From Lachnospiraceae bacterium UBA6452 (GTDB lineage: Bacteria > Bacillota > Clostridia > Lachnospirales > Lachnospiraceae): a stretch of 15,717 nucleotides of DNA. Below, one piece after another: positions 2,178 to 15,717 of this stretch; position 1 is the first letter of the stretch; each line of letters begins with the position of its first letter. The notes under the pieces were generated by a model that did not search any database, was not told where the DNA came from, and saw nothing but the letters and a program-made list of their open reading frames with translations. Both the position numbers and the translations under genes were made by a program. Where the stretch lies: assembly GCA_002441865.1 (NCBI GenBank), contig DJNY01000017.1, positions 1 through 15,717 on the forward strand. The letters are read 5' to 3'.

Positions 2178-2290
2178 GTTTTCTCCCTTCTTCATGCTTC
2201 CTCTTTTATCATGCGGCTGTCCTTCCGGTCAGTCCACGCATAACAACATTATCCTTCATCGCCTGTCTTTTTTCATCTGACTAAATTCAC

Positions 2291-2354: not shown

Positions 2355-3398
2355 TTAGTTATCTCTGCAGAGCAGTTTCAGCTGCCGGATCACGCTGTCA
2401 TAATCGGCGCATGTACTGCATTTCCGCAGTTGTTTCATAAGCTTGTCTGTTTTGGGATTGCTTCCTCCTGCAAGCCCACTAAGTCCAACCTGCAGATAAC
2501 TCCACAGCTCCTTCATCTTAAACAGAACAGGCTTATCGCCCTGCAGATAAGACCGGTAACCTTCATAGATACGGTCATGGAACAGCCACAGTTTTTCCCG
2601 ATCCGCGGTTTTTTCTGTTTTCCAGTTTCCAGATTTCGCTGTTTTCTCCGGCATTTCCCCGTTCTGCCATGACCGCTCCGCCGCAAACCCCGGCCGCATC
2701 AAAAAGCCTCTTCCGATCATCACGGCTGGCAGCTCCGGATAAGTATATGCTAACTTCTGTATCTGTTCCCTGCTTATGATATCTCCATTGTAGCATATCT
2801 GTATGTCTGTCCGTTTCTGCTCCGCGCAGATCTTCCTGTAAGCCTGTGCAAACGCTTCCTCATGGATTTTCCCCTGATAGAAATCTTCCCTAAGACGCGG
2901 ATGGATGATCAGCTCCGAAACAGGAAATGACTCATACAGAGAAAGAAGTTTTTCCCATTCCGCTTCTTCCTCCATTCCGATCCTTGTCTTAATGGAAAGC
3001 TTTATGCCTTTTCCCGCGGCCCAGTCATAGCATTCTGTCAGAAATACTTTTAAAAGCTCCGGTTCTGCCAACAGTCCCGCGCCGCGTTTCTTTGTGACAA
3101 CAGTTGCTGAAGGGCAGCCAAGGTTCAGATTCAGTTCCCGATAGCCAAACTGATACAGCATCTGCGCAGTGGATATAAAATCCTCTCCTTTATTTGCCAG
3201 AAGCTGTGGGATCAGACAGATCCCCGTATTATTTTCCGGCAGGACATCCCTTAAATCACGGGCAGCCAGCTTCTTTCGACAACTGGCTGCGATAAAGGGT
3301 GCAAAATACCGGTCGATCGTTCCCGGAAAGCAGGATTCATATGCATTGCGCAGAACAAATCCCGTGATGCCTTCCAGTGGTGCAAAATAGATGTTCAT
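2355..3398 (-). CDS. dus: tRNA-dihydrouridine synthase family protein (Dus)
   Basis: This is an FMN-dependent enzyme of the Dus family, whose members reduce uridine to 5,6-dihydrouridine in the tRNA D-loop using NAD(P)H. The 347 residues begin directly with the flavin-binding strand (YFAPLEGIT, residues 4-12). The catalytic-cysteine motif is LNLGCPSATV, with Cys95. Also visible are IKTR (Lys137), HPR (His166, Arg168), NGD (204-206) and the phosphate-binding GRG (229-231), all in Dus order. The length is normal for the family. It differs from textbook DusB/DusC: HPR replaces the usual HGRT, and a short polar insertion (about residues 245-265) precedes the helical C-terminal domain. The start is 8 nt after the fcl stop with only a weak ribosome binding site, suggesting translational coupling. 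A tRNA-modification gene at the end of a nucleotide-sugar operon is odd but need not be functional. The subtype and target uridine cannot be read from the sequence. Confidence 0.9.
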   Translation of the reverse strand: MNIYFAPLEGITGFVLRNAYESCFPGTIDRYFAPFIAASCRKKLAARDLRDVLPENNTGICLIPQLLANKGEDFISTAQMLYQFGYRELNLNLGCPSATVVTKKRGAGLLAEPELLKVFLTECYDWAAGKGIKLSIKTRIGMEEEAEWEKLLSLYESFPVSELIIHPRLREDFYQGKIHEEAFAQAYRKICAEQKRTDIQICYNGDIISREQIQKLAYTYPELPAVMIGRGFLMRPGFAAERSWQNGEMPEKTAKSGNWKTEKTADREKLWLFHDRIYEGYRSYLQGDKPVLFKMKELWSYLQVGLSGLAGGSNPKTDKLMKQLRKCSTCADYDSVIRQLKLLCRDN

Positions 3399-3406
3399 AC
3401 GCCGGC

Positions 3407-4351
3407 TTACCGCTCTGCACGCATCGGATTGTGCAGGAAATCTTCATAAGCAAGTCTGATACCGTCTTCCAGCTCTGTCTTGTATTTCCAGCCAAGGCTT
3501 TCAGCCTTTGATACGTCCAGAAGCTTTCTCGGTGTTCCGTTCGGCTTACTCGTATCCCACTTGATCTCTCCCGTATAGCCTACTACCTTTGCCACAAGCT
3601 CTGTCAGCTCTTTGATCGTCAGCTCCTTACCGGTTCCGGCGTTGACTGTCTCATCTCCGCTGTAGTTGTTCATCAGGAACACGCAAAGGTTAGCCAGATC
3701 ATCCACATATAAGAACTCACGCAGCGGTGAACCGTCTCCCCAGCAGGTTACTTCCTTAAGGCCTGCCTCTTTTGCCTCATGGAATCTGCGGATCAGTGCC
3801 GGCAGTACATGGGAATGTGTCGGATGGTAATTATCATTTGGACCGTACAGATTGGTCGGCATTACGGAAATATAGTCTGTTCCATACTGTTTATTTAAAA
3901 ATTCACAATATTTCAGACCTGAGATCTTCGCAAGCGCATATGCTTCATTTGTCTTCTCCAGCTCTGAAGTCAGCAGACAGCTTTCCTTCATCGGCTGTGG
4001 TGCCATACGTGGATAAATGCAGGAAGAGCCAAGAAACTCCAGCTTCTTACAGCCGTTCTTCCATGCACTGTGGATCGCATTCATCTCCAGGATCATATTA
4101 TCATACATAAAATCAGCCAGTGCATTCTGGTTTGCCACGATCCCGCCTACCTTGGCTGCTGCCAGAAACACATATTCCGGTTTTTCCTGCGCGAAAAATT
4201 CCTCTACAGCATCCTGTCTTGTCAGATCCAGTTCCTTATGGGTTCTTGTCACAATATTGTGATAGCCTTGTCTTTCCAGTTCTCTTACGATTGCAGAACC
4301 AACCATTCCTCTGTGGCCTGCAACATAGATCTTTGCGTCTTTTTCCATCAT
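3407..4351 (-). CDS. fcl: GDP-L-fucose synthase
   Basis: This enzyme converts GDP-4-keto-6-deoxy-D-mannose to GDP-L-fucose by 3,5-epimerisation followed by NADPH-dependent 4-reduction; it acts in the cytoplasm right after Gmd. The 314 residues match the family. The N-terminal Rossmann motif is [10 protein letters not shown] (Gly12, Gly15, Gly18). AAAKVGG (64-70) and GSSCIYP (108-114) are characteristic of Fcl rather than other epimerases; they contain the catalytic Ser and Cys111. The short-chain dehydrogenase pair is Tyr138 and Lys142 (YALAK). The substrate-domain motif [14 protein letters not shown] follows. A GGAAG ribosome binding site serves Met1 or the adjacent Met2; either gives an essentially identical protein. 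It lies 37 nt downstream of gmd on the same strand, so the two are almost certainly cotranscribed. No defect is seen. Confidence 0.96.
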
Positions 4352-4388
4352 TTGCTCTTCTTCCTTCTTCCCTTTTCAAAAACTATGT

Positions 4389-5480
4389 CTATTTTACAAC
4401 GCCTTTTTCCAGATATTCTTCCAGATTCATCTTAATGTGTTCTTCCGCACGCTCTACTGCAACTTTTTCCATATCATGCTTTGTCATGAGGGCAACCAGT
4501 TCTTCAAAGCTTGTCTTGGTCGGGTTCCATCCAAGCTCTGTCTTCGCCTTGGTCGGATCTCCCCAGAGATTTACCACATCTGTCGGGCGGTAGAAATCAG
4601 GGCTGACTTCAACGATCACTTTGCCGTTGGCTTTATTGATGCCCTTTTCATCCATTCCGCTTCCCTGCCATTCCACTTCGATACCTGCATGATGGAAAGC
4701 AAGTGTTGCGAACTCTCTGACAGAATGCTGTACACCTGTTGCGATTACAAAATCTTCCGGCTTATCATGCTGCAGGATCAGCCACATGCATTCCACATAA
4801 TCTTTTGCATACCCCCAGTCACGCAGACTGTCAAGGTTACCTAAATACAACTTCTCCTGTTTGCCCTGTGCAATCCTTGCTGCAGCCAGTGTGATCTTTC
4901 TTGTTACAAAAGTTTCACCGCGGCGCTCGCTTTCATGGTTAAATAAAATACCGGAGCAGCAGAACATATCATAAGCTTCTCTGTACTCTTTTACGATCCA
5001 GTAGCCATACTGCTTTGCAACTGCGTATGGAGAATACGGATGGAACGGTGTTGTCTCTTTCTGCGGAACCTCTTCTACTTTTCCGTAAAGCTCTGAAGTG
5101 GAAGCCTGATAAATACGGCAGGTCTTTTCCAGCCCGCAGACACGGACTGCCTCAAGTACTCTGAGAACGCCCGTTGCTACCACATCTGCTGTATATTCCG
5201 GAACATCAAAGCTGACCTGCACATGAGACTGTGCTGCCAGATTGTAGATCTCATCCGGTCTGATCTCTCCGATCAGCTTTACAAGACTGATGGAATCTCC
5301 GAGATCACCAAATTTCAAATGAAAGTGCGGTGTTCCTTCCAGATGGGCAATACGTTCCCTGAAATCCACGGAAGATCTGCGGATCATTCCGTATACTTCA
5401 TACCCCTTTTCCAATAAAAACTCTGCTAAATAAGAGCCGTCCTGTCCGGTCACACCTGTGATAAGTGCCTTTTTTGCCAT
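4389..5480 (-). CDS. gmd: GDP-mannose 4,6-dehydratase
   Basis: This enzyme dehydrates GDP-D-mannose to GDP-4-keto-6-deoxy-D-mannose, the first committed step to GDP-L-fucose (also to GDP-rhamnose or GDP-perosamine in other organisms). I chose ATG 5480 (363 residues) because the Rossmann start [18 protein letters not shown] follows at once and an AGGAG site lies 8 nt upstream. The reading frame continues 28 codons further to 5564, but that extension has no family resemblance and no good ribosome binding site. NAD(P) motif: Gly9, Gly12, Gly15. Active-site region: STSELYG (127-133), with Thr128, Glu130, Tyr152 and Lys156. [17 protein letters not shown] (181-197) is diagnostic for Gmd. It is the first gene of gmd-fcl-dus. 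A 177-bp gap containing a direct repeat separates it from the divergent AraC regulator, the most likely controller (inference). Confidence 0.97.
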
Positions 5481-5488
5481 AGTTCCTT

Positions 5489-5493
5489 CTCCT
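5489..5493 (-). promoter_or_regulatory. Ribosome binding site deciding the gmd start
   Basis: AGGAG on the minus strand, 8 nt upstream of ATG 5480. It supports the 363-residue Gmd over the start at 5564. Confidence 0.8.
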
Positions 5494-5534
5494 TTTTCTT
5501 TTATATATGACGATATTGCTATTTTCTGTTTTCT

Positions 5535-5563
5535 ATAATATACCCACATTTCTGCCTTATCCA
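5535..5563 (-). promoter_or_regulatory. Possible gmd promoter
   Basis: On the minus strand, TGGATA (plus 5558-5563) and TATTAT (plus 5535-5540) are separated by 17 bp. The -35 box matches the consensus at four of six positions, so it would be weak and suited to activation. It lies just downstream of the 21-bp-spaced direct repeat, where an AraC-type activator would bind. The evidence is pattern only. Confidence 0.4.
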
Positions 5564-5565
5564 TT

Positions 5566-5598
5566 CATTGTATTGACATTCAGTTGCATTATATTGAC
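5566..5598. promoter_or_regulatory. Two 12-bp direct repeats, 21-bp period: candidate AraC-family operator
   Basis: CATTGTATTGAC (5566-5577) and CATTATATTGAC (5587-5598) differ at one base and start 21 bp apart, two helical turns. Direct half-sites at this spacing are the classic layout of AraC I1/I2 sites. They lie in the gap between araC and gmd. The right copy overlaps the proposed -35 box of araC, which would permit autorepression, and both lie upstream of the proposed gmd promoter. Binding by the adjacent regulator is inference. Confidence 0.5.
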
Positions 5599-5620
5599 TT
5601 TTATTTTGAACTTATATAAT
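5594..5620 (+). promoter_or_regulatory. Possible araC-family gene promoter
   Basis: TTGACT (5594-5599) and TATAAT (5615-5620) are separated by 15 bp. Both boxes are good but the spacing is 2 bp short of ideal; TAATAT at 5617-5622 gives 17 bp with a poorer box. It is 38 bp from the start codon. Confidence 0.5.
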
Positions 5621-5657
5621 ATATAGAGAAAAGATATGACAGAAACGGAGTTTTTTC

Positions 5658-6524
5658 ATGGAACAGCAGGCATTATTTCACGGGGATCTCGTCAATACAA
5701 CCCGGATCATTTATACCCCCTCGGAGTTTGCCAAAACTTCCCTTTTACATGTACAGGAAATTGGCACCCTGCAGGCACAAAAACCGCATATGAGCAAACG
5801 TGCGGATCTGGATTCCTATCTCTTCTTTATGGTACGATCCGGCTCCGGCGAGCTGCATTATGCCCATAATACTTATCCGCTGCGTGTTGGCGACTGTGTC
5901 TTTATCGACTGCAGATCCGCCTATTTTCACGAAACAAAGGACGACCTCTGGAGTCTTTCCTGGGTGCATTTCAACGGTCCATCGATCGATGGAATTTACC
6001 AGAAGTATAAGGAACGCGGCGGTCTGCCCGCCTTTCATGCAAATGCATTTGCCCTTTATGAAGACTGTTTTAACCATCTTTACAGCATGGTGTCGGGCAA
6101 TTCTTACGTCCGGGACATGCAGATCAACGAAGGACTTTCTGCTCTGTTAACCCTGTTGATGGAAGATAGCTGGCATCCGGACAGTATGCCTGCCCATACC
6201 AAACGTACCAGCCTGTGGCATGTCCGGGAATATCTTGATCAGAATTATGCACAAAAAATATCGCTCGACGATCTCGCCGAACGATACTTCATCAACAAAT
6301 ATTATCTCACCAGAATTTTTAAAGAACAATTTGGTGTTACCATCAACAATTACCTTTTAAACGTCCGCATCACCCATGCCAAACGCGAGCTGCGCTTTTC
6401 CGGCAAGTCCGCCGAAGAGATCGGGGCTGAGGTTGGTTTTCATGAGCTGTACTACTTCAGCCGCGTCTTTAAAAAAGTAGAAGGCTGCAGCATCAGTGAG
6501 TACCGGAGAATGTGGGGTACCTGA
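5658..6524 (+). CDS. AraC-family transcriptional regulator
   Basis: A 288-residue regulator of normal AraC/XylS length. The N-terminal half (about 20-150) is a cupin-like effector-binding domain: a beta-rich stretch around YLFFMVRSGSGELHY and YPLRVGDCVFIDCRSAYFH, then SLSWVHFNG. The C-terminal 100 residues contain two helix-turn-helix motifs: SLDDLAERYFINKYYLTRIF (202-221) and one at about 251-272 ending YYFSRVFKK, followed by the family tail SEYRRMW. GGAG lies 7 nt upstream of the chosen ATG. It is the only plus-strand gene recognised here, divergent from gmd and convergent with manC, whose stop codon touches its own. By position it probably controls GDP-fucose or polysaccharide genes in response to a sugar or sugar phosphate; the effector is unknown. 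Readthrough from manC would be antisense to it. Confidence 0.93.
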   Translation: MEQQALFHGDLVNTTRIIYTPSEFAKTSLLHVQEIGTLQAQKPHMSKRADLDSYLFFMVRSGSGELHYAHNTYPLRVGDCVFIDCRSAYFHETKDDLWSLSWVHFNGPSIDGIYQKYKERGGLPAFHANAFALYEDCFNHLYSMVSGNSYVRDMQINEGLSALLTLLMEDSWHPDSMPAHTKRTSLWHVREYLDQNYAQKISLDDLAERYFINKYYLTRIFKEQFGVTINNYLLNVRITHAKRELRFSGKSAEEIGAEVGFHELYYFSRVFKKVEGCSISEYRRMWGT

Positions 6525-7841
6525 TCAGATTTCCAGCTCAAACTTCTGTTTATCATGCACATTGATATCCTTGCCAAGCTGGATCTCTACGAGACGCAGC
6601 TCTGTATCCGCAAACACCGTATGGCGGCAGCCTGCAGACATTGTGATCACATCGCCTGCTTTCACAGCCTGTTCAAATCCGTCTACGACTGTTCTGCCGT
6701 TTCCGGAAATAACTACCCAGACTTCATCCCGGTTTTTGTGGCTATGATAATTCATGCTGTGCCCCGGATTCAGAGTTACCTTGATCGTCATGGAAGTCCC
6801 TTCCACATCCAATACCCGGAAGCTTCCCCATGACTTTTCCGCAAACATGATCTGCTGCTCAAATTTATCCACATAAGGCTTGATATAGCTGCTCTGCTCT
6901 TTGTCGGATACCAGAATACCATCCGGCGAAGCAGAAATGACCACGTCATGCAGTCCCATTGCAAGTACAGGCACATCCATCTCATTGACGATATGCACAT
7001 CTGAACAGGTCTCATTTAAAACACCTTTTCCGACAACAGATTCTTCCATCGCTTCTGTCAGCGTGTTCCATGTACCTAGATCCTTCCACTGTCCGGCAAA
7101 ACGCTGTACCTGGATCTTATCCTCTTTCTCTACAACCGCATAATCAAAAGAAATTTTTGTCAACGTCTCATATTTATCAAATAAATCCTGATAATCTGTA
7201 AATTTAATCAGTTCATGCGCCTTCTCAAGCACATATTTCAGCTTGTACGCAAAAACACCGCCATTCCAGAGCGCACCGCGCTTTATATATTCCGCTGCCA
7301 CATCTGCCGTTGGCTTTTCCTTAAAGGTCTCAACCATAGATGTATGATCTGCCGTCTTCGGAATGATATATCCATATTTTTCACTCGGATAAGTCGGCTC
7401 GATTCCCATGAGTACCAGATTGGCTTCGCCCTTGTCCGCCTGCTCAGACAGATCTTTCAGCGCAGCAAAATAGTCATCCTCTACATAAGGATCGACAGGA
7501 CAGACTACTACCGATTCTTCCGGGCTGACTTTCATTTCATCAACAAGATAAGCTGTCGCTAACGCAATCGCCGGGAAGGTGTCTCTTCTGCATGGCTCTA
7601 TGGAAATTCCTACACCATCACCAAGCTGGTTATGGATCGCTGAAACCTGCGTCTTGGAGGTTGCGATTGTGACGGTTGCATCCGCATCTACCGTCTTGAT
7701 CTGCCGATAAACACGCTGCACCATAGACTCATAAGAGCCGTCCTTTTTCTTAAATATTTTTATAAACTGTTTGCTTCTCACATCATTGGAAAGCGGCCAC
7801 AGGCGCTTTCCTGATCCGCCTGATAATAATACAATGTTCAT
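6525..7841 (-). CDS. manC: Mannose-1-phosphate guanylyltransferase with C-terminal cupin
   Basis: This enzyme makes GDP-D-mannose from mannose-1-phosphate and GTP, the precursor used by Gmd. The nucleotidyltransferase domain (about 1-260) opens with LSGGSGKRLWPLS (6-18) and contains CPVDPYVEDD (114-123), FKEKP (173-177) and LWNGGVF (191-197). A linker leads to a cupin of the AlgA/CpsB type (about 335-425) with His366, His368, Glu373 and His407 as likely metal ligands. At 438 residues it is somewhat shorter than bifunctional PMI/GMP enzymes (about 470), so phosphomannose isomerase activity is possible but not certain. AGGAAT precedes the start. It lies 25 nt after the glycosyltransferase gene and is last of that run; its TGA abuts the araC-family stop, leaving no room for a terminator before the opposing gene. 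Confidence 0.95.
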   Translation of the reverse strand: MNIVLLSGGSGKRLWPLSNDVRSKQFIKIFKKKDGSYESMVQRVYRQIKTVDADATVTIATSKTQVSAIHNQLGDGVGISIEPCRRDTFPAIALATAYLVDEMKVSPEESVVVCPVDPYVEDDYFAALKDLSEQADKGEANLVLMGIEPTYPSEKYGYIIPKTADHTSMVETFKEKPTADVAAEYIKRGALWNGGVFAYKLKYVLEKAHELIKFTDYQDLFDKYETLTKISFDYAVVEKEDKIQVQRFAGQWKDLGTWNTLTEAMEESVVGKGVLNETCSDVHIVNEMDVPVLAMGLHDVVISASPDGILVSDKEQSSYIKPYVDKFEQQIMFAEKSWGSFRVLDVEGTSMTIKVTLNPGHSMNYHSHKNRDEVWVVISGNGRTVVDGFEQAVKAGDVITMSAGCRHTVFADTELRLVEIQLGKDINVHDKQKFELEI

Positions 7842-7866
7842 AGTTATTCCTGTTCTGCTTCCGGTA

Positions 7867-9096
7867 TTATTTATCTCCAGAAAGATCTTTTATTTTTCTT
7901 GGAAGCCATGTAATAGTCCGCCCCATTTTGTAGCTTACAGAATTCTCAAGGTCATCATATTTTTTTTGTAAAATTGTTAATTCCTTATTCAATTTTTTAA
8001 CCTGCTGATTCGCGTTTCTGACCTGTTGCCTTACATTTCGTATCTCCTGTCTGGCTTCTTTCAGATCAGATTCTTTTATCTTTTTCTCCCCAGTGCGTTC
8101 TGTCAGCTGGATGTATGTCATAAACGCAAGATAAGTCTGAAAATCCTCGGGAGAATCATTTAAAATATGCGATACAAAATCCGTATACCAGGATATATAA
8201 TAATAGCTTTCATCACGCTCACATATGTGCAGCCTTGTGAGTCCCCCATTTTGCAAAAAAGCTACTGTTGACAAAAAAGCTTCTCTCTGGCTGATATTAC
8301 GAAGAAGATAGATTGTACTGCCGATCACCTTGTTTACATAGCTCTGTTCCGGCATTACCCCTTTGGACTCCAGATTTTCCGCAACATCCATCCATGCCTG
8401 AAATGGTGTTGTCGGTGCTTTTGAAAGAGTGCCCACAAGACTCTGTTTCTGATTCTTTCTATATGTTATAAGTGGCTCTGCAAGTGTTGTAATACGTTCA
8501 GCCAGACACAGTGCGCTAACTGTAAAATAAAGATCATTTCCATTCCGAACCGGCTGAAAAGCAAGCTTTTGTTCTTCAACAAATGCACGGCGGAATAGTT
8601 TATTCCATGCTGCCTCATTGGTAAAATTTAAAATATAAGCTTCGTTTGTCTGCCTGTTAAACACCTCTTCTTCTGGTATGCGTTTCACATTCATATTAGC
8701 AGTATTATAAAATTGCAGCCCCTTTTCTTCCAGGTACTGATATACACCACACACTACTACATCTGCCTTTGTTTCTATTGCTTTCGCATACATTTTCTCC
8801 AGAGCATCCAACGCGAAAAAATCATCACAGTCCCAAAAAATAATATATTCACCACTTGCGTGACTTTTTCCTGTATTTCTTGCTACCCCCGCATAAAGGT
8901 TCTGCTGTCTGTATATCTGAATTCGGTCATCTTTTCTTTGATATTCTTCCAGGATCAAAGGCGAAGAATCTGTCGATCCATCATCCACACAAATAATTTC
9001 TATATCTTTTAGCGTCTGGTTACATACACTATCCAGACATTGTTTTAAATATTTTTCTCCATTGTAAACAGTTACAACCACCGAAACTTTAACCAT
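7867..9096 (-). CDS. Family 2 glycosyltransferase with C-terminal coiled coil
   Basis: A GT-A fold inverting transferase that adds a sugar from a nucleotide donor to a growing glycan at the inner membrane face. From ATG 9096 it is 409 residues: VSVVVTVYNGEKYLKQCLDS, CVDDGSTDSS (VDDGS at 37-41), AGVARNTG (69-76) and the metal-binding WDCDD (88-92) are standard GT2 motifs. Residues about 340-388 form a charged coiled coil, ending in SVSYKMGRTITWLPRKIKDL, a tail type common in Firmicutes surface-polysaccharide transferases. I chose 9096 because AAGGAAT lies upstream and the GT2 strand begins at once. The alternative ATG at 9129 would overlap the polymerase gene by 28 nt. With 9096 the gap is 5 nt, so expression is probably coupled. 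Donor and acceptor cannot be inferred; fucose or mannose are guesses from context. Confidence 0.9.
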   Translation of the reverse strand: MVKVSVVVTVYNGEKYLKQCLDSVCNQTLKDIEIICVDDGSTDSSPLILEEYQRKDDRIQIYRQQNLYAGVARNTGKSHASGEYIIFWDCDDFFALDALEKMYAKAIETKADVVVCGVYQYLEEKGLQFYNTANMNVKRIPEEEVFNRQTNEAYILNFTNEAAWNKLFRRAFVEEQKLAFQPVRNGNDLYFTVSALCLAERITTLAEPLITYRKNQKQSLVGTLSKAPTTPFQAWMDVAENLESKGVMPEQSYVNKVIGSTIYLLRNISQREAFLSTVAFLQNGGLTRLHICERDESYYYISWYTDFVSHILNDSPEDFQTYLAFMTYIQLTERTGEKKIKESDLKEARQEIRNVRQQVRNANQQVKKLNKELTILQKKYDDLENSVSYKMGRTITWLPRKIKDLSGDK

Positions 9097-9101
9097 TTTC
9101 T

Positions 9102-10253
9102 CTATTCCTTTCTTTTTGTATACAAACAATCACACTCTGCACTAAATGCAAGTAACAAAAACGGATCATAACAAAGTGAACGAAGCTGTGGGTCAGCAAG
9201 TCCATGCAGCAGAAATACAACAATCACAACTGCACGCATCGTATGTTTCTGCCTAAGACTACCCACAAACATCCTTCCCAATATCAGGCACATAATAATT
9301 GTAAATACAACTCCCATTGAAAGCAATGTCTGCAAATAAATATTATCAACATAATTATATGGCAATCCCGGGTTACCTGCTGCCTGTGCAACGCCTATCC
9401 ATTCTATTTTTTCCCCCCACAGATGTACCCCATACTGCAAAATTGCACTCTGTCCAAGTTGTAATCTTCCATTTAACATTTCATTTATTTTACACCAGAT
9501 CCCCAGATTAAAGTCTGCCTTCCATGCGCTCACATAACTGATCACTAAAAGGAAAAGCGGAAGAAGTCCTCCGGGAACTATATACCATTTTTCTTTCTTG
9601 AAATATTCACCCCAAACACCAGCCAGAGCCGCAAAAAGCAATAACAGTATACAAAGCACAAAATCTGCCCGTGTATCTGTCAGGCAATAAATCACAAAAT
9701 TTACCACTACGATCGGAATAATCTCCCAGACCCGGACAGTTTTTCTCACTACAAGATATAACATTGTGAGTGTCAGCATATAATGACTTGCATAACTACA
9801 ATACGTAAACCCCAGGCTATGACGTACTCGTTCTCCCATATCTTCATAAAAAAGGATATCCTCTGTTATGCCTATTATCATCAACAAAATCGTCAGGCTT
9901 ACCATAGTGCTGTAAAATATAAGCAACCTTTTTGCCAGTCTCTGAAAAGGGAATCTTCCGGCTGTATAAATAAGCAAAAGCGAAACTGCCAAAGTCAGAG
10001 AAACTCTTTTATATGCCAGCAGGGCAAAACCCGCACATACCAATAATATCAGGAAACTTTTCATTTCCTTTTTGTGATAAAGTATAAGATCCAATACTGT
10101 CAAAAAGAGTACAACATATAAGGTTTCTTTTGAATATTTTTTTATTCCCACCAGTGTTCCTATGCAGGTTGTTCGCAAAAACGAAAGCAGAAGCCATATA
10201 AAAAGAGTAATAGAGTACAGTAGCTCTGCACGATTGTATTGTCTATTTTCCAT
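9102..10253 (-). CDS. Wzy-like polysaccharide polymerase / O-antigen-ligase-type membrane protein
   Basis: The 383-residue integral membrane protein has about 10-12 hydrophobic segments (for example 11-30, 43-59, 66-80, 108-128, 150-169, 177-192, 197-213, 224-242, 305-325, 339-352). Between residues about 245 and 300 lies a long hydrophilic loop containing LNGRLQLG (260-267) and LWG. The N-G-R-L element followed by a large external loop is typical of Wzy polymerases and WaaL-type ligases, as is the late HGLADPQLRSLCYDPFLLL stretch seen in clostridial homologues. Such proteins join lipid-linked repeat units outside the membrane. Sequence conservation in this class is poor, so the call rests on topology, loop motif and context. 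It starts 5 nt after the upstream secreted-protein gene and ends 5 nt before the glycosyltransferase, a tightly coupled arrangement. No flippase or initiating transferase is present in the window. Confidence 0.8.
   Translation of the reverse strand: MENRQYNRAELLYSITLFIWLLLSFLRTTCIGTLVGIKKYSKETLYVVLFLTVLDLILYHKKEMKSFLILLVCAGFALLAYKRVSLTLAVSLLLIYTAGRFPFQRLAKRLLIFYSTMVSLTILLMIIGITEDILFYEDMGERVRHSLGFTYCSYASHYMLTLTMLYLVVRKTVRVWEIIPIVVVNFVIYCLTDTRADFVLCILLLLFAALAGVWGEYFKKEKWYIVPGGLLPLFLLVISYVSAWKADFNLGIWCKINEMLNGRLQLGQSAILQYGVHLWGEKIEWIGVAQAAGNPGLPYNYVDNIYLQTLLSMGVVFTIIMCLILGRMFVGSLRQKHTMRAVVIVVFLLHGLADPQLRSLCYDPFLLLAFSAECDCLYTKRKE
9104..9110 (-). promoter_or_regulatory. Ribosome binding site deciding the glycosyltransferase start
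   Basis: AAGGAAT on the minus strand, about 8-9 nt upstream of ATG 9096. It lies at the very end of the preceding polymerase gene and its 5-nt gap. It supports the shorter 409-residue product. Confidence 0.6.
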
Positions 10254-10258
10254 ACTTT

Positions 10259-12568
10259 CTAGATTGCCCTTATCTTTATTTTTTTAGATAGACCTTTTTT
10301 ACGAAACAATTTTGTATATTCCTTCAATTTGCTTTTCGGGACCTTGATCACTGTCTTTTTCGACATTCCCTTAAAGGCACCTTTTGCAACACTTTTATTT
10401 GTCAGCTTTTTTGATTTAATTGTCAGTACTTTCAATTTTTTGCATCCTGAGAAAGCACTTGTCCCAATTTTATTACATTTACCCGGTAACGTCAATTTTG
10501 TTAAGTTGCTGCAGTTTTTAAATGCATTTGCTCCTATCGAGCTTACATTTTTTCCGATTGTGATCTGTTTCAGTTTTTTCTGACCTTTGAACTGGTTTTT
10601 CCTTACCCGAGTTGCATCATTTGTTATGACCGCTTTTGTAGATGACTTATAGCGGCAGTTAAAATCAACTTTAGGAAATAGCTTACGAAGGCTATCCTCT
10701 AATGTTACAGAAACATTCATATAGTCAACACTTGCATAGCGCAGTTTTCGGTTTTGATCCAGCAGCAGCTTACCTCTCATATCGAGTTCATAACCGTCGT
10801 CTGTTTGTTTTCCGACCACATTAAACATCATGCTATTAGATGCATCAAATACCATTGTAAAAGATTTTTTTATAGAAGTTTCTTTCATTATTTTTTTCAC
10901 ATCTTCGTAACTTTGAGCCATGTATACAACCAAAATTGTTATCTTATTCCCTAACACTTCCTGATATTTTTCCGCATCTTTTAACTCTTCCTCAATCATA
11001 TCTGCATCCCATAGTCCATAATAAATCAAAACTGGTTTGCTTCCAAAGTCCGACAATTTTACAATTTCCCCATTTTCATCTTTGAAGTTCAGATCAGAAC
11101 ATGTCTGTCCTAATTTATTTAGATGTTTTGGAACGTCCTTTTTGTATTGTAACCATAATTGATTCACGCCATAACCTGTTGTTTTTTTGAAAAAATCCCC
11201 TCTGTAATCATATTCTTTACATAGCTGATTTAAGATTTGTACTAAATTATGATTGTATTTTTCTTCTGCCCATTTCAAGAAGCCGGCTGCAGTCGTGTAT
11301 CCATTTGCATAAGTCCCCCCAACAGATGCTACAATCGGCAAATCCCATCCAGCCCTTCGGTTATTCACGCCAAACTGATCTCTGCCATAATCTGCAATAC
11401 CCTCTACTAACCATCCCGGTATATTCTTCGTATATCCCTGCGCAACATGAACCAGCTCATGCGTAATACAATCATAATCCTCCGGATTGGCTTTCAGATA
11501 TGCTCCGCCAACAACAATTAAGTTCTGACTTACATCTGTATATGCCACGCCATCATAACTTGTAATTTCAATCTTCACTTTGTTCAACTTTCCCATACCA
11601 AATGCATTGCATATCGCTGCATACCTCGCATTGAAAAGATTTCGTATATTGGCTTTCGTTTTATTATCCACCAGATTATGTACATCTGTCAGCTCCAAAT
11701 AAGAACTGACATCCATACTTTCATCCAGCCTTTGGAATGTTTTCAGATTACAATCAATTTCTTCTAACTGAATACCACAGTTTTTCAAATAAACTTCCCA
11801 AAGATCATCAATATCCAATCCTGTATATATTCTAAACAATTCACTAGAATACTCGCCGGTCTTAATTTTTTGATTTAATGTATATACAAAATCCGATTTA
11901 TAGTTTTTCTCTATGAAGCATAAAAAATCTGCCGTTGTCCGATATCCGTCCGTATAATTGGCACTTGTAGAATCAACCGGTTCCAACTTCCACCCGGCTG
12001 TTACATTGTTAATGCCATACTTGTTTCTCCCATAATCAGCTATTCCTTCTATCAGCCAGCCATCTACATACCCTTTATAATTCTGCGCGACATGAATCAA
12101 TTCATGTGTAAAAGCATCATAATCCGCTTTTTGTGTATTAAAATAATTAGGATTAATTGTAATAGTCTGCCCCTGTGTATAAGCTACATCTCCTTCCCCT
12201 GTGTATGTCTTATCTACAATGAGCTTTACCTGCAAAATATTTCCATTATTAAAGAAATCACAAATTTGCTTCCATGTACGTGAAAATACCATCTTCAGGT
12301 TTTCACGCACATCTGCCTCAAGCACATTATTTTTATCCTCAATCGTCAGATAGCCGTTAATATCTGTAGTTCCTTCCACTTCAATCTCACGCACATCATT
12401 CTCTGAAACACTATATTTCTCTGTTGCATCATTTGCACTAAGCAAGTTGTCAGCCACATCCATATCTGGCTGTATAAGGTCTGCATATACAGGTACCTCC
12501 ATAGATGATACAATCAGTACTGCTACCAGTACCGCTCCTAACATTCTTTTCATTATTCTTTTTTTCAT
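10259..12568 (-). CDS. Secreted protein: two BSP-type metallopeptidase domains, redoxin-like domain, LRR_5 repeats
   Basis: 769 residues. A signal peptide (1-29, ending VYA) leads into an acidic linker with SVSEND (53-58). Two tandem domains resembling the basic secretory protein peptidases (PF04450) follow, about 60-270 and 280-485. Each has an intact zinc motif (HELIH 155-159; HELVH 370-374), then GWL(I/V)EGIADYGR with Glu174 or Glu389 as the probable third ligand. Over the 47-residue core I count 30 identities between them. Residues about 485-635 look like a thioredoxin-fold redoxin (LGQTCSDLNFKDENGEIVKL, then KLLLDQNRKLRYA), but the CxxC region reads YYGLWDADM with no cysteines. Residues about 660-738 contain BspA-type LRR_5 repeats spaced 23 residues, then a Lys-rich end. 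AAAGGGG precedes the start. It is packed 5 nt upstream of the polymerase gene, suggesting a role at the cell surface with that polysaccharide. Substrate unknown. Confidence 0.85.
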   Translation of the reverse strand: MKKRIMKRMLGAVLVAVLIVSSMEVPVYADLIQPDMDVADNLLSANDATEKYSVSENDVREIEVEGTTDINGYLTIEDKNNVLEADVRENLKMVFSRTWKQICDFFNNGNILQVKLIVDKTYTGEGDVAYTQGQTITINPNYFNTQKADYDAFTHELIHVAQNYKGYVDGWLIEGIADYGRNKYGINNVTAGWKLEPVDSTSANYTDGYRTTADFLCFIEKNYKSDFVYTLNQKIKTGEYSSELFRIYTGLDIDDLWEVYLKNCGIQLEEIDCNLKTFQRLDESMDVSSYLELTDVHNLVDNKTKANIRNLFNARYAAICNAFGMGKLNKVKIEITSYDGVAYTDVSQNLIVVGGAYLKANPEDYDCITHELVHVAQGYTKNIPGWLVEGIADYGRDQFGVNNRRAGWDLPIVASVGGTYANGYTTAAGFLKWAEEKYNHNLVQILNQLCKEYDYRGDFFKKTTGYGVNQLWLQYKKDVPKHLNKLGQTCSDLNFKDENGEIVKLSDFGSKPVLIYYGLWDADMIEEELKDAEKYQEVLGNKITILVVYMAQSYEDVKKIMKETSIKKSFTMVFDASNSMMFNVVGKQTDDGYELDMRGKLLLDQNRKLRYASVDYMNVSVTLEDSLRKLFPKVDFNCRYKSSTKAVITNDATRVRKNQFKGQKKLKQITIGKNVSSIGANAFKNCSNLTKLTLPGKCNKIGTSAFSGCKKLKVLTIKSKKLTNKSVAKGAFKGMSKKTVIKVPKSKLKEYTKLFRKKGLSKKIKIRAI

Positions 12569-12593
12569 GACTTATCCCCTTTCTCTCATCTTT

Positions 12594-13349
12594 TTATATG
12601 TTTATCCATAAATGCTTCCGCATATAAGAAAGCCATGCATTCGTATCCGGATTATCCGACACAAACTGCATCAGCTTGTCCACATACCCCTGCTCCTTTG
12701 CAATCTGTACACTGATCGGATAAATCAGTTCAAATACCAGACAAATATGTCCTACCAGATTATCAACCGGCGTATGCTTCAGGCTGCGAAGCACCGTGTG
12801 CTTCTCCATAAAGCATTTTTTCACAGAATCCGATACTGCTGCCTGTTTCAGTTCCGCAGTCGATACATTATAAATATCTTCAAGCGGCGTATCACAATTT
12901 ACCCGGAAAATATCAATCTTATCTGCATCACGCAATATATTGCAATATGCAGTTTTCTCCGCAGACATACCTTGCGGAATTCTGTATTTGTTATGATTTT
13001 CAATGCTGACTTTGAGAAGTTCCTGTTCCTCCGGTGTAAAATCTCCGAATTGTGTAAGAAGCCCCTCCTCAAACAGGATCGTTATCCCCAGCTCTGCATG
13101 ATCTATCGACTCACTATCCACAAAAGTGCCATATCTTTTCACCTGTTCAAAACGGCCTATGTCATGGAGCATCCCCATTGTCCACGCAAGATCCCTGTCA
13201 ATGGGTATATTCGTAACTGTTTTGGCAATGCGCTCTGCAAGCGCCGCCACACGATACGTGTGGTCGATCTTCAGCCTGATCTTCGGATCAGATGCATTAT
13301 ATTTATTTGTATAATCTGCAAATGTTTGCTTGATTCTTGTTCGGTTCAT
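12594..13349 (-). CDS. HD-domain metal-dependent hydrolase
   Basis: 251 residues with the HD phosphohydrolase signature in order: His30 (KIDHTYRVA), His62-Asp63 (MLHDIGRFEQ), His84, His119 (ENHNKYR) and Asp141 (RDADKIDIF). This set suggests a five- or six-ligand, possibly dinuclear metal centre. HD proteins of this size hydrolyse nucleotides, cyclic nucleotides or other phosphomonoesters and diesters; the substrate cannot be read here. I see no sensor domain, signal peptide or membrane segment. The start is weakly supported: the nearest Shine-Dalgarno-like AGGAG is 15 nt upstream, farther than usual, and falls inside the remnant of an Rpn-type gene. No better in-frame start is apparent. It ends 25 nt before the secreted BSP/LRR gene and could be its first operon partner, although the functional link is unclear. 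Confidence 0.85.
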   Translation of the reverse strand: MNRTRIKQTFADYTNKYNASDPKIRLKIDHTYRVAALAERIAKTVTNIPIDRDLAWTMGMLHDIGRFEQVKRYGTFVDSESIDHAELGITILFEEGLLTQFGDFTPEEQELLKVSIENHNKYRIPQGMSAEKTAYCNILRDADKIDIFRVNCDTPLEDIYNVSTAELKQAAVSDSVKKCFMEKHTVLRSLKHTPVDNLVGHICLVFELIYPISVQIAKEQGYVDKLMQFVSDNPDTNAWLSYMRKHLWINI

Positions 13350-13370
13350 CAGTTATTTCAATAGCTCCTG
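13342..13370. repeat. Left copy of 29-bp direct repeat
   Basis: Matches 15479-15507 at 28 of 29 positions (only 13351 differs). On the minus strand it spans the codons for QELLK, the TAA stop, and the ATGAACCG that here begins the HD gene. It bounds the ATPase/SEC-C segment with its partner. Confidence 0.85.
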
Positions 13371-13418
13371 TCTTGCTAAATGCTTCAGTTCTTCCAATCC
13401 TCTGTTTAATGAATACTC
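13353..13418 (-). pseudogene. Remnant of the C-terminal tail of an Rpn-type nuclease gene
   Basis: On the minus strand 21 codons read EYSLNRGLEELKHLARQELL plus K, then TAA. The last residues (QELLK-stop) and flanking DNA are nearly identical to the end of the Rpn-type gene at 15490, and EGL/EELK-like charged ends are usual for that family. The frame is open upstream to an ATG at 13463 (36 codons in all, starting inside a palindrome), but without a ribosome binding site, so I treat it as a remnant. It is in frame with the HD gene, separated by one stop. Beyond the 29-bp match the resemblance is compositional only. Confidence 0.5.
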
Positions 13419-13447
13419 TAAAAAGTTACAACAGACCAAGTTAACGG

Positions 13448-13462
13448 TGGTGCCTGGCACCA
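13448..13462. repeat. REP-like 7-bp perfect palindrome with one central base
   Basis: TGGTGCC-T-GGCACCA. It lies between the ATPase stop (13475) and the Rpn remnant, in the 125-bp gap before the HD gene. No T-run follows in either direction, so it is not a classical terminator. The core GGTGCCTGGCACC resembles short palindromes dispersed in many bacterial genomes; only one copy is seen here. Confidence 0.55.
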
Positions 13463-13474
13463 TGTGCTCTATCT

Positions 13475-14893
13475 CTACACATAAAGTGAATCTAAGGTAA
13501 GTAATAATACATCCTCTTCGGAAAGTGATTCAAACCAGTCTGTATATCCGGTCAGAGAAAAGAATATATATTTTGAAACCTTATATTTTGCCGTAATTAA
13601 CTTTCCTCTTCTGATCAGCGTTTCATAAATACCTTTGTCAATCTTTTCGTTTTTAAATTTACATTCCCCTATAACAGCCTTTTTGTCTACCTCAGACAAA
13701 GCAACCACATCAATGTCCGCAGATTGTGTTCTAATGCCTCCATTATTATCTGTCACCTTCTCTATTCCCCACCAAGTACCTACAGAAGTAATAAAGCAGC
13801 CATATTCACCTGTTATCCCCTTCATTAACGTATAATACCTGCACATTTCTTCAAAAACCGAACCCATGAATGAATGTAATACCGGCTTAACCACTTTTGT
13901 GTAATAGAGTTCCCCCTGTCCCATTTCAATTACGCTGGTAGCTTTTGAAATAAATTCATACCAAAACTTGAACATATAATCTTTTAAGACATACTGCGTC
14001 TTCTTTTTGTTCTTCTCCTCCGTAATGCATTTCTTTTTTTCAACCAGACCAACATTTATCAGCTTATCTAGTGAATATAATACCGTTTGCTCTTTTTCTC
14101 TGATTTTACCTGCAATCGTATTGAGTGTATTTTCCCCGGATGCAATCTGTTCAACAATATTATTTACAAGTGATATATCAGAAAACTCCTGCGTCAGAAG
14201 ATTTCTTGTTTCATCATATAAATATCCATCTGTTCTGAAGAATAGTCGAATGATATTTTCATCTATACTCTTTTCAGGGTCAATCATAGAAAGATACTTT
14301 GCAACTCCACCGGTAATACCATAACAGACAGCCTTATCCTCATTGGAATAATCAGGGACAAATTTTGCAGCATCTAAGTAATTAAATGCCTCCAATTTAA
14401 TCTGCGAATCACGCCTTCCAAACAAAGGGCTCTTTTCACTGAGTACTTTCTTCTCCATGAAACTAAGCGCGGAACCGCACAATATCACTTTAAGATTCTT
14501 ATCACTCCAGACTCTATCTATATATTTTTGCAAAACAGATAATAGTGCATCATCTTTTTCAGCCCAATATGGTAATTCATCTATTACCAGAATAAGCTTC
14601 TCATCTCCCATATTCTTATTGATAAAATCAAAAACTGCCTCTGTCGTATTAAAACTGATATCCTCCACATCCGGCATAAGCAAATCTGTTACCTGCTTTG
14701 AGAACAATTCCAGATTCCTATCCTTCCCCACTTTAGTCGCCGTATAAAAGATTGTCTTTTTATCTTTGACAAATTCAGCAATCAGCGTAGACTTTCCGAT
14801 ACGTCTGCGTCCATATATGACTGTCATGCCAATGCCTTCTTTATCGTAGAACTCTTTTAAGGATGCCAGTTCTCTTTCTCTGCCTATAAACAT
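13475..14893 (-). CDS. AAA ATPase (archaeal ATPase type) fused to DUF234 nuclease-like domain
   Basis: From ATG 14893 the protein has 472 residues and begins MFIGRERELASL, the usual start of this family. Walker A is YGRRRIGKST (27-36), Walker B LILVIDE (100-106), and a sensor-like LCGSALSFM follows (138-146). A winged-helix region lies at about 240-305. The C-terminal DUF234 region (about 305-472) carries D395 (ADIDVVA) and GECKFK with Glu410 and Lys412, a PD-(D/E)XK nuclease arrangement. These proteins are common in archaea and Firmicutes and often sit in mobile patches; their role is unsettled. An upstream ATG at 14908 overlaps the GGAGG itself, so I prefer 14893, 8 nt downstream of it. It stands alone between two short gaps, near a SEC-C gene and inside a 29-bp direct repeat. 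By eye its DNA is more AT-rich than the gmd-fcl region. Confidence 0.88.
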   Translation of the reverse strand: MFIGRERELASLKEFYDKEGIGMTVIYGRRRIGKSTLIAEFVKDKKTIFYTATKVGKDRNLELFSKQVTDLLMPDVEDISFNTTEAVFDFINKNMGDEKLILVIDELPYWAEKDDALLSVLQKYIDRVWSDKNLKVILCGSALSFMEKKVLSEKSPLFGRRDSQIKLEAFNYLDAAKFVPDYSNEDKAVCYGITGGVAKYLSMIDPEKSIDENIIRLFFRTDGYLYDETRNLLTQEFSDISLVNNIVEQIASGENTLNTIAGKIREKEQTVLYSLDKLINVGLVEKKKCITEEKNKKKTQYVLKDYMFKFWYEFISKATSVIEMGQGELYYTKVVKPVLHSFMGSVFEEMCRYYTLMKGITGEYGCFITSVGTWWGIEKVTDNNGGIRTQSADIDVVALSEVDKKAVIGECKFKNEKIDKGIYETLIRRGKLITAKYKVSKYIFFSLTGYTDWFESLSEEDVLLLTLDSLYV

Positions 14894-14901
14894 TTGCATC
14901 T

Positions 14902-14906
14902 CCTCC
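14902..14906 (-). promoter_or_regulatory. Ribosome binding site deciding the ATPase start
   Basis: GGAGG on the minus strand, 8 nt upstream of ATG 14893. The longer candidate start at 14908 contains this site inside its own first codons, so the 472-residue form is preferred. Confidence 0.75.
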
Positions 14907-15032
14907 ATATTTGTTCATTTTATTCAAATCATTTTTAACAAAATATTTCTGAATTAAATATATCATAAACGAGTCTATGCAACCAATCCCTTTATTAACA
15001 ATTTAATCATCTATCAAATAGGCAAGGCCTTT
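14907..15032. other. AT-rich intergenic stretch upstream of the ATPase gene
   Basis: About 125 bp between the SEC-C stop and the ATPase ribosome binding site, very AT-rich. It probably holds the ATPase promoter, but I see no -35/-10 pair close to consensus and no convincing hairpin terminator. Confidence 0.4.
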
Positions 15033-15478: not shown

Positions 15479-15507
15479 CGGTTCATCGGTTATTTCAATA
15501 GCTCCTG
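15479..15507. repeat. Right copy of 29-bp direct repeat
   Basis: Partner of 13342-13370 (28 of 29 identical, same orientation). Here it is the genuine 3' end of the Rpn-type gene plus 11 nt beyond its stop. The ATG within it opens only a 9-codon frame, whereas in the left copy the same ATG starts the HD gene. Confidence 0.85.
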
Positions 15508-15717
15508 CAGTCTTTTTACCTCGGCCTCCAACTCAGCAGCTCTTTTAACCGCATCATTTGCTCTTTGCACTGCATCATCTGCTCTTTGCCGCTCCTTTTC
15601 TGTATTCTCCCTTTCAAGTTCTATTCCCTCCCGTTTTCCGGCATTATATTCCGTAAGAAGGCATCTCTCATAGTCTTCCCTTGCTTCACACTGCATACGG
15701 ATTTTTTCATCTTCACT
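15490..15717 (-). CDS. C-terminal tail of an Rpn-type (PD-(D/E)XK) nuclease/transposase-like protein, 5' end beyond window
   Basis: The frame is open to the right edge, giving 75 residues that start SEDEKIRMQCEAREDYE and end EVKRLQELLK. The pattern of an acidic start, an AREDYE-like helix, a K-R-E-G stretch (AGKREGIELERE) and a charged coiled-coil tail matches the C-terminus of the Rpn (recombination-promoting nuclease, PDDEXK_2) family frequent in Lachnospiraceae. The catalytic domain would lie outside the window. About 28 residues form near-perfect heptads (RADDAVQ, RANDAVK, RAAELEA, EVKRLQE). Family members are active nucleases, and some are reported as toxic phage-defence proteins; no activity can be claimed from the tail alone. 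Its 3' end is duplicated upstream of the HD gene. Confidence 0.65.
   Translation of the reverse strand, partial: SEDEKIRMQCEAREDYERCLLTEYNAGKREGIELERENTEKERQRADDAVQRANDAVKRAAELEAEVKRLQELLK
15551..15592. repeat. Two tandem 21-bp units encoding coiled-coil heptads
   Basis: Units 15551-15571 and 15572-15592 match at 17 of 21 positions and encode RANDAVK and RADDAVQ on the minus strand. A third, more diverged heptad follows in the protein. This is a possible site of length variation by slippage. Confidence 0.6.

Follow-up and report, generated by a model that had tools for sequence, protein, structure and literature searches.

In the open-access library searched, two papers name the basic secretory protein family (BSP, PF04450), both, judged by titles, on plant defence proteins, and few descriptions of bacterial BSP peptidases exist. 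According to the accessible part of a report on plant BSPs, the published template for the plant BSP PRp27 is tricorn F3, and a hydroxamate metalloprotease probe labels only the form with an intact HExxH motif (PMC9322406). In Mediterraneibacter gnavus, which likely belongs to the same bacterial family as the source of the DNA described here, SrtB4 is needed for capsule presentation, as stated in the accessible part of the source (PMC13121745). Here, we describe a stretch of 15,717 nucleotides from Lachnospiraceae bacterium UBA6452 (contig DJNY01000017.1, assembly GCA_002441865.1), which is called the window throughout. In the 769-residue protein that it encodes, two tandem BSP domains are followed by a thioredoxin-like domain and then by a C-terminal leucine-rich repeat (LRR) tail; the gene is located beside genes for a Wzy-like membrane protein and a family 2 glycosyltransferase (GT2; Table 1). 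No description of a tandem-BSP, a BSP-thioredoxin or a BSP-glycan system was found among the papers listed from the open-access library searched.

Taken as a whole, the locus is best explained by a peptidase that is retained at the cell surface and encoded, together with two glycan genes, in a swappable cassette for surface remodelling, a reading to which we assign a probability of roughly 0.42. The two zincin units would cut extracellular or envelope proteins, the thioredoxin-like domain, devoid of a redox pair, may pick the partner or substrate, and the LRR tail likely holds the protein at the cell surface. The BSP gene would travel with two glycan genes, so that the sugar coat and surface proteolysis may change together.

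Anatomy and conservation of the tandem-BSP protein

The coordinates that a first-pass annotation, made from the sequence alone, had given for the reading frame are confirmed, with the strand corrected to minus (12568..10259); the plus-strand translation contains many stops. The domain order proposed there, with two tandem BSP domains carrying both zinc sites and with LRR_5 repeats at the C-terminus, was recovered by Pfam: PF04450 is matched in two stretches (E=1.6e-34; 120 bits versus a cut-off of 23.8) and LRR_5 in the tail (E=2.6e-19), while the match to AhpC-TSA in between is marginal (E=5.1e-6; 26.9 bits versus a cut-off of 26). An artefact or chance match is ruled out by the E-value for BSP and by relatives of like architecture. 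The LRR tail has kin in segments of numerous proteins from related genomes. Secretion is predicted from a signal-peptide-like N-terminus, the single hydrophobic stretch found in a hydropathy scan of the protein being residues 9-27. All residue numbers refer to the 769-aa open reading frame (ORF), and P0001 denotes the window's own protein in the subfamily comparisons.

Both BSP copies keep the HExxH motif and the downstream EGxAD. All 11 tandem proteins, self included, carry both HExxH motifs, and EGxAD was detected by script in 21 of the 22 BSP copies, the remaining one, BSP1 of P0008, reading WIVEGIAD by eye in the alignment. The residues H370, E371, H374, Q377, W386, E389, G390, D393, R396 and Y424 (numbers converted) are invariant in an alignment of 42 rows. 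A zincin fold around both HELxH motifs, the absence of which the first-pass annotation had named beforehand as refuting its reading, was indeed predicted: both units were modelled as gluzincins resembling M30 (lugdulysin) and M1 peptidases (LTA4 hydrolase, tricorn F3), at 8-15% identity in the rows shown for BSP2. BSP2 was folded alone for this comparison, because the thioredoxin domain took most rows in the fold search with the whole model. The likeness to M1 and M30 is one of predicted fold; Pfam returned no row for either at E<=1. From motifs and models, both BSP domains are thus predicted zinc peptidases. The profile eCIS_core (PF13699) also matches the protein (36.4 bits versus a cut-off of 22), its best stretch being residues 128-165 around HELIH (profile positions 39-77 of 79), as well as all 10 relatives scanned; no eCIS genes were noticed among the window ORFs scanned with Pfam, and the match of about 38 residues probably reflects a zinc motif and its surroundings that are common to both, and not a connection with eCIS.

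The third domain had been annotated as redoxin-like, and of this description the thioredoxin-type fold, which is predicted for the window protein, stands, while the redox function is not supported. The CXXC motif of TlpA/DsbE-type redoxins is absent from the domain in all 12 aligned proteins, self included. By eye, the alignment shows no cysteine immediately after the Trp, at the place expected for the first cysteine of a CXXC, and the Pro ahead of the last strands is kept in 11 of the 12 proteins, the window protein being the exception. Since CXXC is missing, a redox role is unlikely. When P0001 is compared with P0002, the identity amounts to 93% in BSP1, 95% in BSP2 and 96% in the LRR tail but to 57% for the thioredoxin-like domain. 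The stretch 500-600 contains 58 differences in 101 positions versus 43 in 599 elsewhere from residue 70 on, and identity resumes abruptly near residue 599. In four further chosen pairs the thioredoxin-like domain was again less conserved than either of the other two domains compared. Recombination and diversifying change would both fit this variability, and the domain without CXXC is likely a recognition module.

A search for related proteins gave 162 matches at E<=1e-3, and among the best 120 of these a core-wide match was confined to the first 12 (self included), of which 11 possess two BSP copies and one, P0012, possesses a single BSP and a redoxin-like domain. The tandem proteins share 33-85% identity overall. 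Their C-terminal modules are LRR_5 in P0001, P0002 and P0004-P0007, Big_2/fn3 in P0003 and Big_2 in P0008, while nothing follows the redoxin-like domain in P0009-P0012. A search with an alignment profile added no tandem member among the best 120 of 126 matches, and in these the score drops from 511 bits for P0012 to 179 for an LRR protein and 128 for a single BSP. The 12 proteins thus make up a subfamily that is small and has a sharp boundary.

In a tree of 44 rows, BSP1 of all 11 tandem proteins falls into one group (86/95) and BSP2 of all 11 into another (98/94), with P0012 placed outside both and the fork above them supported by 89/79. The separate groups and the position of P0012 therefore make a single, old duplication likely; with moderate confidence, the ancestor would already have combined BSP with a redoxin-like domain, and both active sites would have been retained since. 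In an Opitutae protein (L025 1961-3391), BSP is likewise present twice, with both domains placed away from the tandem subfamily in the tree, and tandem BSPs therefore likely arose more than once. Two Pedobacter contigs (L023 and L024, around 9.6-12.2 kb) contain three adjacent single-BSP frames each, an independent local expansion.

PF04450 was found in five of 397 genomes of the family at E<=0.001, four of them over the cut-off, and 14 control genomes were silent. The core protein matched in 15 of 392 genomes of the order and 17 of 391 of the class, mostly weakly and in one part. The joint presence of BSP1, BSP2 and thioredoxin-like profiles was restricted to two of the 109 open frames that were matched by at least one of these three purpose-built profiles in the fetched loci. 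These two, L021 and L022, are also the matching genomes (2/7) of their genus. A first scan of genome contigs with the single sequence of the BSP protein gave no match.

A three-gene block at a GDP-sugar locus

In the closest genome compared, G001, counterparts of window positions 2666-6517 (93.5% identical), 6529-7855 (93.5%) and 12605-14988 (96.6%) are present, and those of the latter two stretches lie only about 98 bp apart. The intervening block, with the BSP, Wzy-like and GT2 genes, is missing in G001 while the flanking DNA is 93-97% identical. The three genes therefore likely came or went together and resemble a single exchanged unit. The G+C content at third codon positions (GC3) is 0.331 for BSP, 0.349 for the Wzy-like gene and 0.333 for GT2 versus 0.444 for the HD-domain gene and 0.481 for manC, which mildly favours gain by the window over loss by G001. 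PF04450 was not found in G001 in the search that matched five other genomes, and G001 and G002, the two genomes searched from their genus, gave no match in a search run without a positive control. As the block contains two predicted surface-sugar genes and is missing in G001, it likely remodels the cell surface.

The proximity of the BSP gene to the Wzy-like gene, in line with GT2 and manC, was described correctly by the first-pass annotation: the BSP stop and the Wzy-like start are 5 nt apart on the same strand. In addition, an HD-domain gene lies 25 nt upstream of the BSP gene, again on this strand. As listed from a TTG, the GT2 frame shares 28 nt with the Wzy-like gene; a start at the ATG at 9096 seems more natural and would leave a gap of 5 nt, as between the BSP and Wzy-like genes. 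The flank with the manC-like gene is common to window and G001. An AraC gene, downstream of the BSP gene, separates manC from two frames that we take, by eye, to be gmd-like and fcl-like; a further gene of the window, named by eye, is presumably dus.

Table 1. Features of the window (minus strand throughout; residue numbers refer to the tandem-BSP protein)
Feature	Position	Strand	Basis
fcl-like gene	3407..4351	minus	named by eye; counterpart in G001, G002
gmd-like gene	4389..5564	minus	named by eye; counterpart in G001, G002
manC-like gene (mannose-1-phosphate guanylyltransferase type)	6525..7841	minus	Pfam; TIGR01479 194.8 bits, under cut-off
4749-bp block (GT2, Wzy-like, BSP and last 11 nt of HD ORF)	7856..12604	minus	no counterpart in matching G001 locus
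GT2 glycosyltransferase, 420 aa from listed TTG	7867..9129	minus	Glycos_transf_2 9.2e-41
Wzy/O-antigen-ligase-like multi-pass membrane protein, 383 aa	9102..10253	minus	
Whole ORF, tandem-BSP/thioredoxin-like/LRR protein, 769 aa	10259..12568	minus	Pfam; alignment of 12 proteins including self
LRR_5 C-terminal tail, residues 637-769	10262..10660	minus	
Thioredoxin-like domain without CXXC, residues 483-634	10667..11122	minus	
Variable stretch in thioredoxin-like domain, about residues 500-598	10775..11071	minus	
BSP2 catalytic domain, residues 285-476	11141..11716	minus	
WLVEGIAD of BSP2, from residue 386	11390-11413	minus	
HELVH, residues 370-374, predicted zinc site of BSP2	11447..11461	minus	
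BSP1 catalytic domain, residues 70-262	11783..12361	minus	
WLIEGIAD of BSP1, from residue 171	12035-12058	minus	
HELIH, residues 155-159, predicted zinc site of BSP1	12092..12106	minus	
Predicted signal peptide, residues 1-29 (cleavage placed by eye)	12482..12568	minus	sequence; hydropathy
HD-domain protein	12594..13349	minus	Pfam; 94% aa identity to G001, shared flank

The label Wzy-like holds for a membrane ORF and is weakly supported as a family name: the window's own protein has no Pfam match, and Wzy_C (PF04932) was matched by five of the nine Wzy-like proteins scanned, with a best E of 9.3e-5. The search with this protein gave nine proteins, one of them 100% identical by its table; a Wzy-like protein, P0122, is 81% identical, and a search of solved structures with the Wzy alignment returned nothing at E<=10. 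A Wzy-like relative was found in 22 of 250 genomes of the family; that of G001 (32%) adjoins a LicD gene and genes that by eye resemble a teichoic-type locus. The protein could equally be a ligase. The term polysaccharide operon, also from the first-pass annotation, is generous, since no flippase or priming transferase was identified among the nine window ORFs scanned with Pfam, although these may lie outside the 15.7 kb.

No transposase was found among the ORFs of the block, and only short or imperfect repeats were seen, both of which count against a transposon-borne insert. For a phage origin, a scan of viral contigs gave 39 pattern-matching stretches and no confirmed relative; for a plasmid origin three records matched, one a Hymenobacter stretch of 582 bp annotated 'basic secretory family protein' and two by the LRR part only, and both origins were rejected. 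A scan for promoters and terminators gave no clear excess over shuffled sequences (31 vs 30.8; 8 vs 5.5, sd 2.7).

Further differences from G001 were observed around the block. A 495-aa DUF6056 membrane protein lies between manC and AraC in G001 (L118, C10:98630-100117) and is absent from the window, and, together with the block, this makes the GDP-sugar locus look exchangeable at two points. The first third of the HD gene (window 13089-13370) is duplicated in G001 (C10:105485-105745), and this second copy directly adjoins the counterpart of window 15479-15717, pointing to an old rearrangement at the ATPase_2/DUF234 gene and its surroundings. Parts of both window ends match G001 more poorly or not at all. 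At one end, window 3-2195 encodes an open-ended predicted surface protein of 731 aa with no Pfam or NCBIfam match, the start of which is kin to a 1299-aa protein of G001.

Weighing the surface-remodelling cassette against its alternatives

Several observations weigh against the reading as a surface-retained peptidase in an exchanged cassette, some of them directly and others through the alternatives that they favour. The fold matches of BSP1 and BSP2 are near the level, about 13, at which the aligner itself advises caution for helical arrangements. A motif scan revealed no lipobox or LPxTG-type motif in the BSP protein, nor any other canonical wall anchor, so that the case for surface retention depends on the LRR tail. 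In 9 of the 12 proteins, the scanned part of the thioredoxin-like domain still contains one or two lone cysteines, so that 'redox-dead' is concluded from the missing CXXC. The limits of the variable stretch were set after inspection, and P0001/P0002 is the single pair this close. Presence and absence of the block were read from G001 alone, and low GC3 also occurs beyond the HD gene, in the ATPase (0.358) and SEC-C (0.364) genes, the former being common to window and G001.

Quite possibly, the BSP gene is a passenger, encoding a general secreted peptidase of the clade that merely ended up in one insert with the glycan genes, with a likely role in scavenging nutrients or digesting host proteins. 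The genomic context of the relatives fits this reading. Neither of the two full-architecture relatives with partly readable context lies beside glycan genes: L021 is followed downstream by GGDEF-type and clostripain-type genes (named by eye), its upstream side being unread because the contig ends 155 bp upstream, and in L022 the gene lies between RelA-like and polA genes (named by eye). In a phmmer survey with the window's proteins (E<=1e-4), none of 80 BSP loci had a GT2, manC, gmd or Wzy neighbour, and two had an fcl-like one. The survey covered the best 80 of 192 BSP loci with flanks of at most 10 kb, or less where the contig was short. Most of these loci came from Stenotrophomonas, Mucilaginibacter, Pedobacter and related bacteria, and only 13 were titled as Bacillota or members. 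Its controls (L106, L112, L117-L120) were positive; as they are close relatives of the queries, the survey would have missed other kinds of glycan gene. The variation of the C-terminal modules across the subfamily (LRR, Big_2/fn3 or none) also agrees with a passenger, but the tight packing of three genes of like composition that are present or absent as a unit argues for the cassette. As neither L021 and L022 nor the 80 loci show GT2, manC, gmd or Wzy neighbours of this type, the linkage is a feature of this locus, and a general BSP-polysaccharide system is not supported. Of the pairing with surface-glycan assembly put forward in the first-pass annotation, the genetic linkage is accordingly borne out, and strengthened, by the presence/absence block at this locus, whereas the second refuting test named there, on whether homologues occur beside polysaccharide genes, speaks against a general system.

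It is rather unlikely that the BSP domains bind zinc without catalysis and act by binding, as plant PR-17/PRp27 may, within an adhesin or receptor-like surface protein. As given in the accessible part of the source, a zinc-site mutant of PRp27 still confers immunity and Hv-PR17 cleaves neither casein nor gelatin (PMC9322406), and substituted HExxH sites are reported, in the accessible part of another, to be frequent in BSPs (PMC3650047). A pure binder would, however, likely have lost some of the motifs, which both persist in every tandem protein down to 33% identity.

An extended form of the cassette is improbable: here the whole would be mobile, a fast-changing, redox-dead thioredoxin would target the double zincin, and the peptidase would clear or mature the surface proteins that each new glycan decorates, the glycan being made by the co-inherited polymerase/ligase and glycosyltransferase. 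Slightly less credit still is given to the reading of the first-pass annotation, a peptidase with a dedicated part in surface-glycan assembly, where it would trim, anchor or degrade glycoproteins of the fucosylated or mucin type. The downstream order of Wzy-like, GT2 and manC genes and, beyond AraC, of gmd- and fcl-like genes would suit such an enzyme, as would the precedent of SrtB4, described in the accessible part of the source as a processing enzyme in a strain-variable capsule cluster (PMC13121745), but G001 keeps manC, gmd and fcl without a BSP gene, the linkage was not seen in the relatives, and no glycan-binding module over the Pfam cut-off was found in the BSP protein, a Cbm74 row at E 0.19 being far below. 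A redox-coupled protease, in which the thioredoxin-like domain as an active disulfide reductase opens substrates for the peptidase units, can be set aside, an active redoxin being ruled out by the absence of CXXC from all 12 proteins, together with the missing cysteine after Trp and the Pro not kept in the window protein.

Comparison with known systems

Two points give the locus wider interest. A subfamily with both catalytic copies, no redox pair and a variable thioredoxin-like domain raises the testable question of whether a pseudo-thioredoxin can serve as the targeting domain of a protease, and, if the genes of the cassette are also linked in function, an exchange of surface glycans would in this clade go along with one of surface proteolysis.

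As in the BSP family PF04450, the window protein exceeds the curated cut-off, in two stretches with HExxH and EGxAD in each. PRp27 is a 23-kDa secreted protein according to the accessible part of the source (PMC9322406), whereas the window protein combines two BSP copies with a thioredoxin-like domain and an LRR tail. The predicted fold of both BSP units is like that of M30 lugdulysin and of M1 LTA4 hydrolase and tricorn F3, with no match at the sequence level. From TlpA/DsbE/ResA-type proteins it differs by the missing CXXC. With BspA-type LRR_5 surface proteins it shares the C-terminal LRR_5 repeats, and it differs from these by the double BSP unit in front. The srtB4 cluster of M. gnavus, a surface-glycan cluster that varies between strains, likewise includes an enzyme for protein processing; SrtB4, however, is a sortase and not a zincin, and its role in the capsule was tested by mutants, as far as the accessible part of the source describes (PMC13121745).

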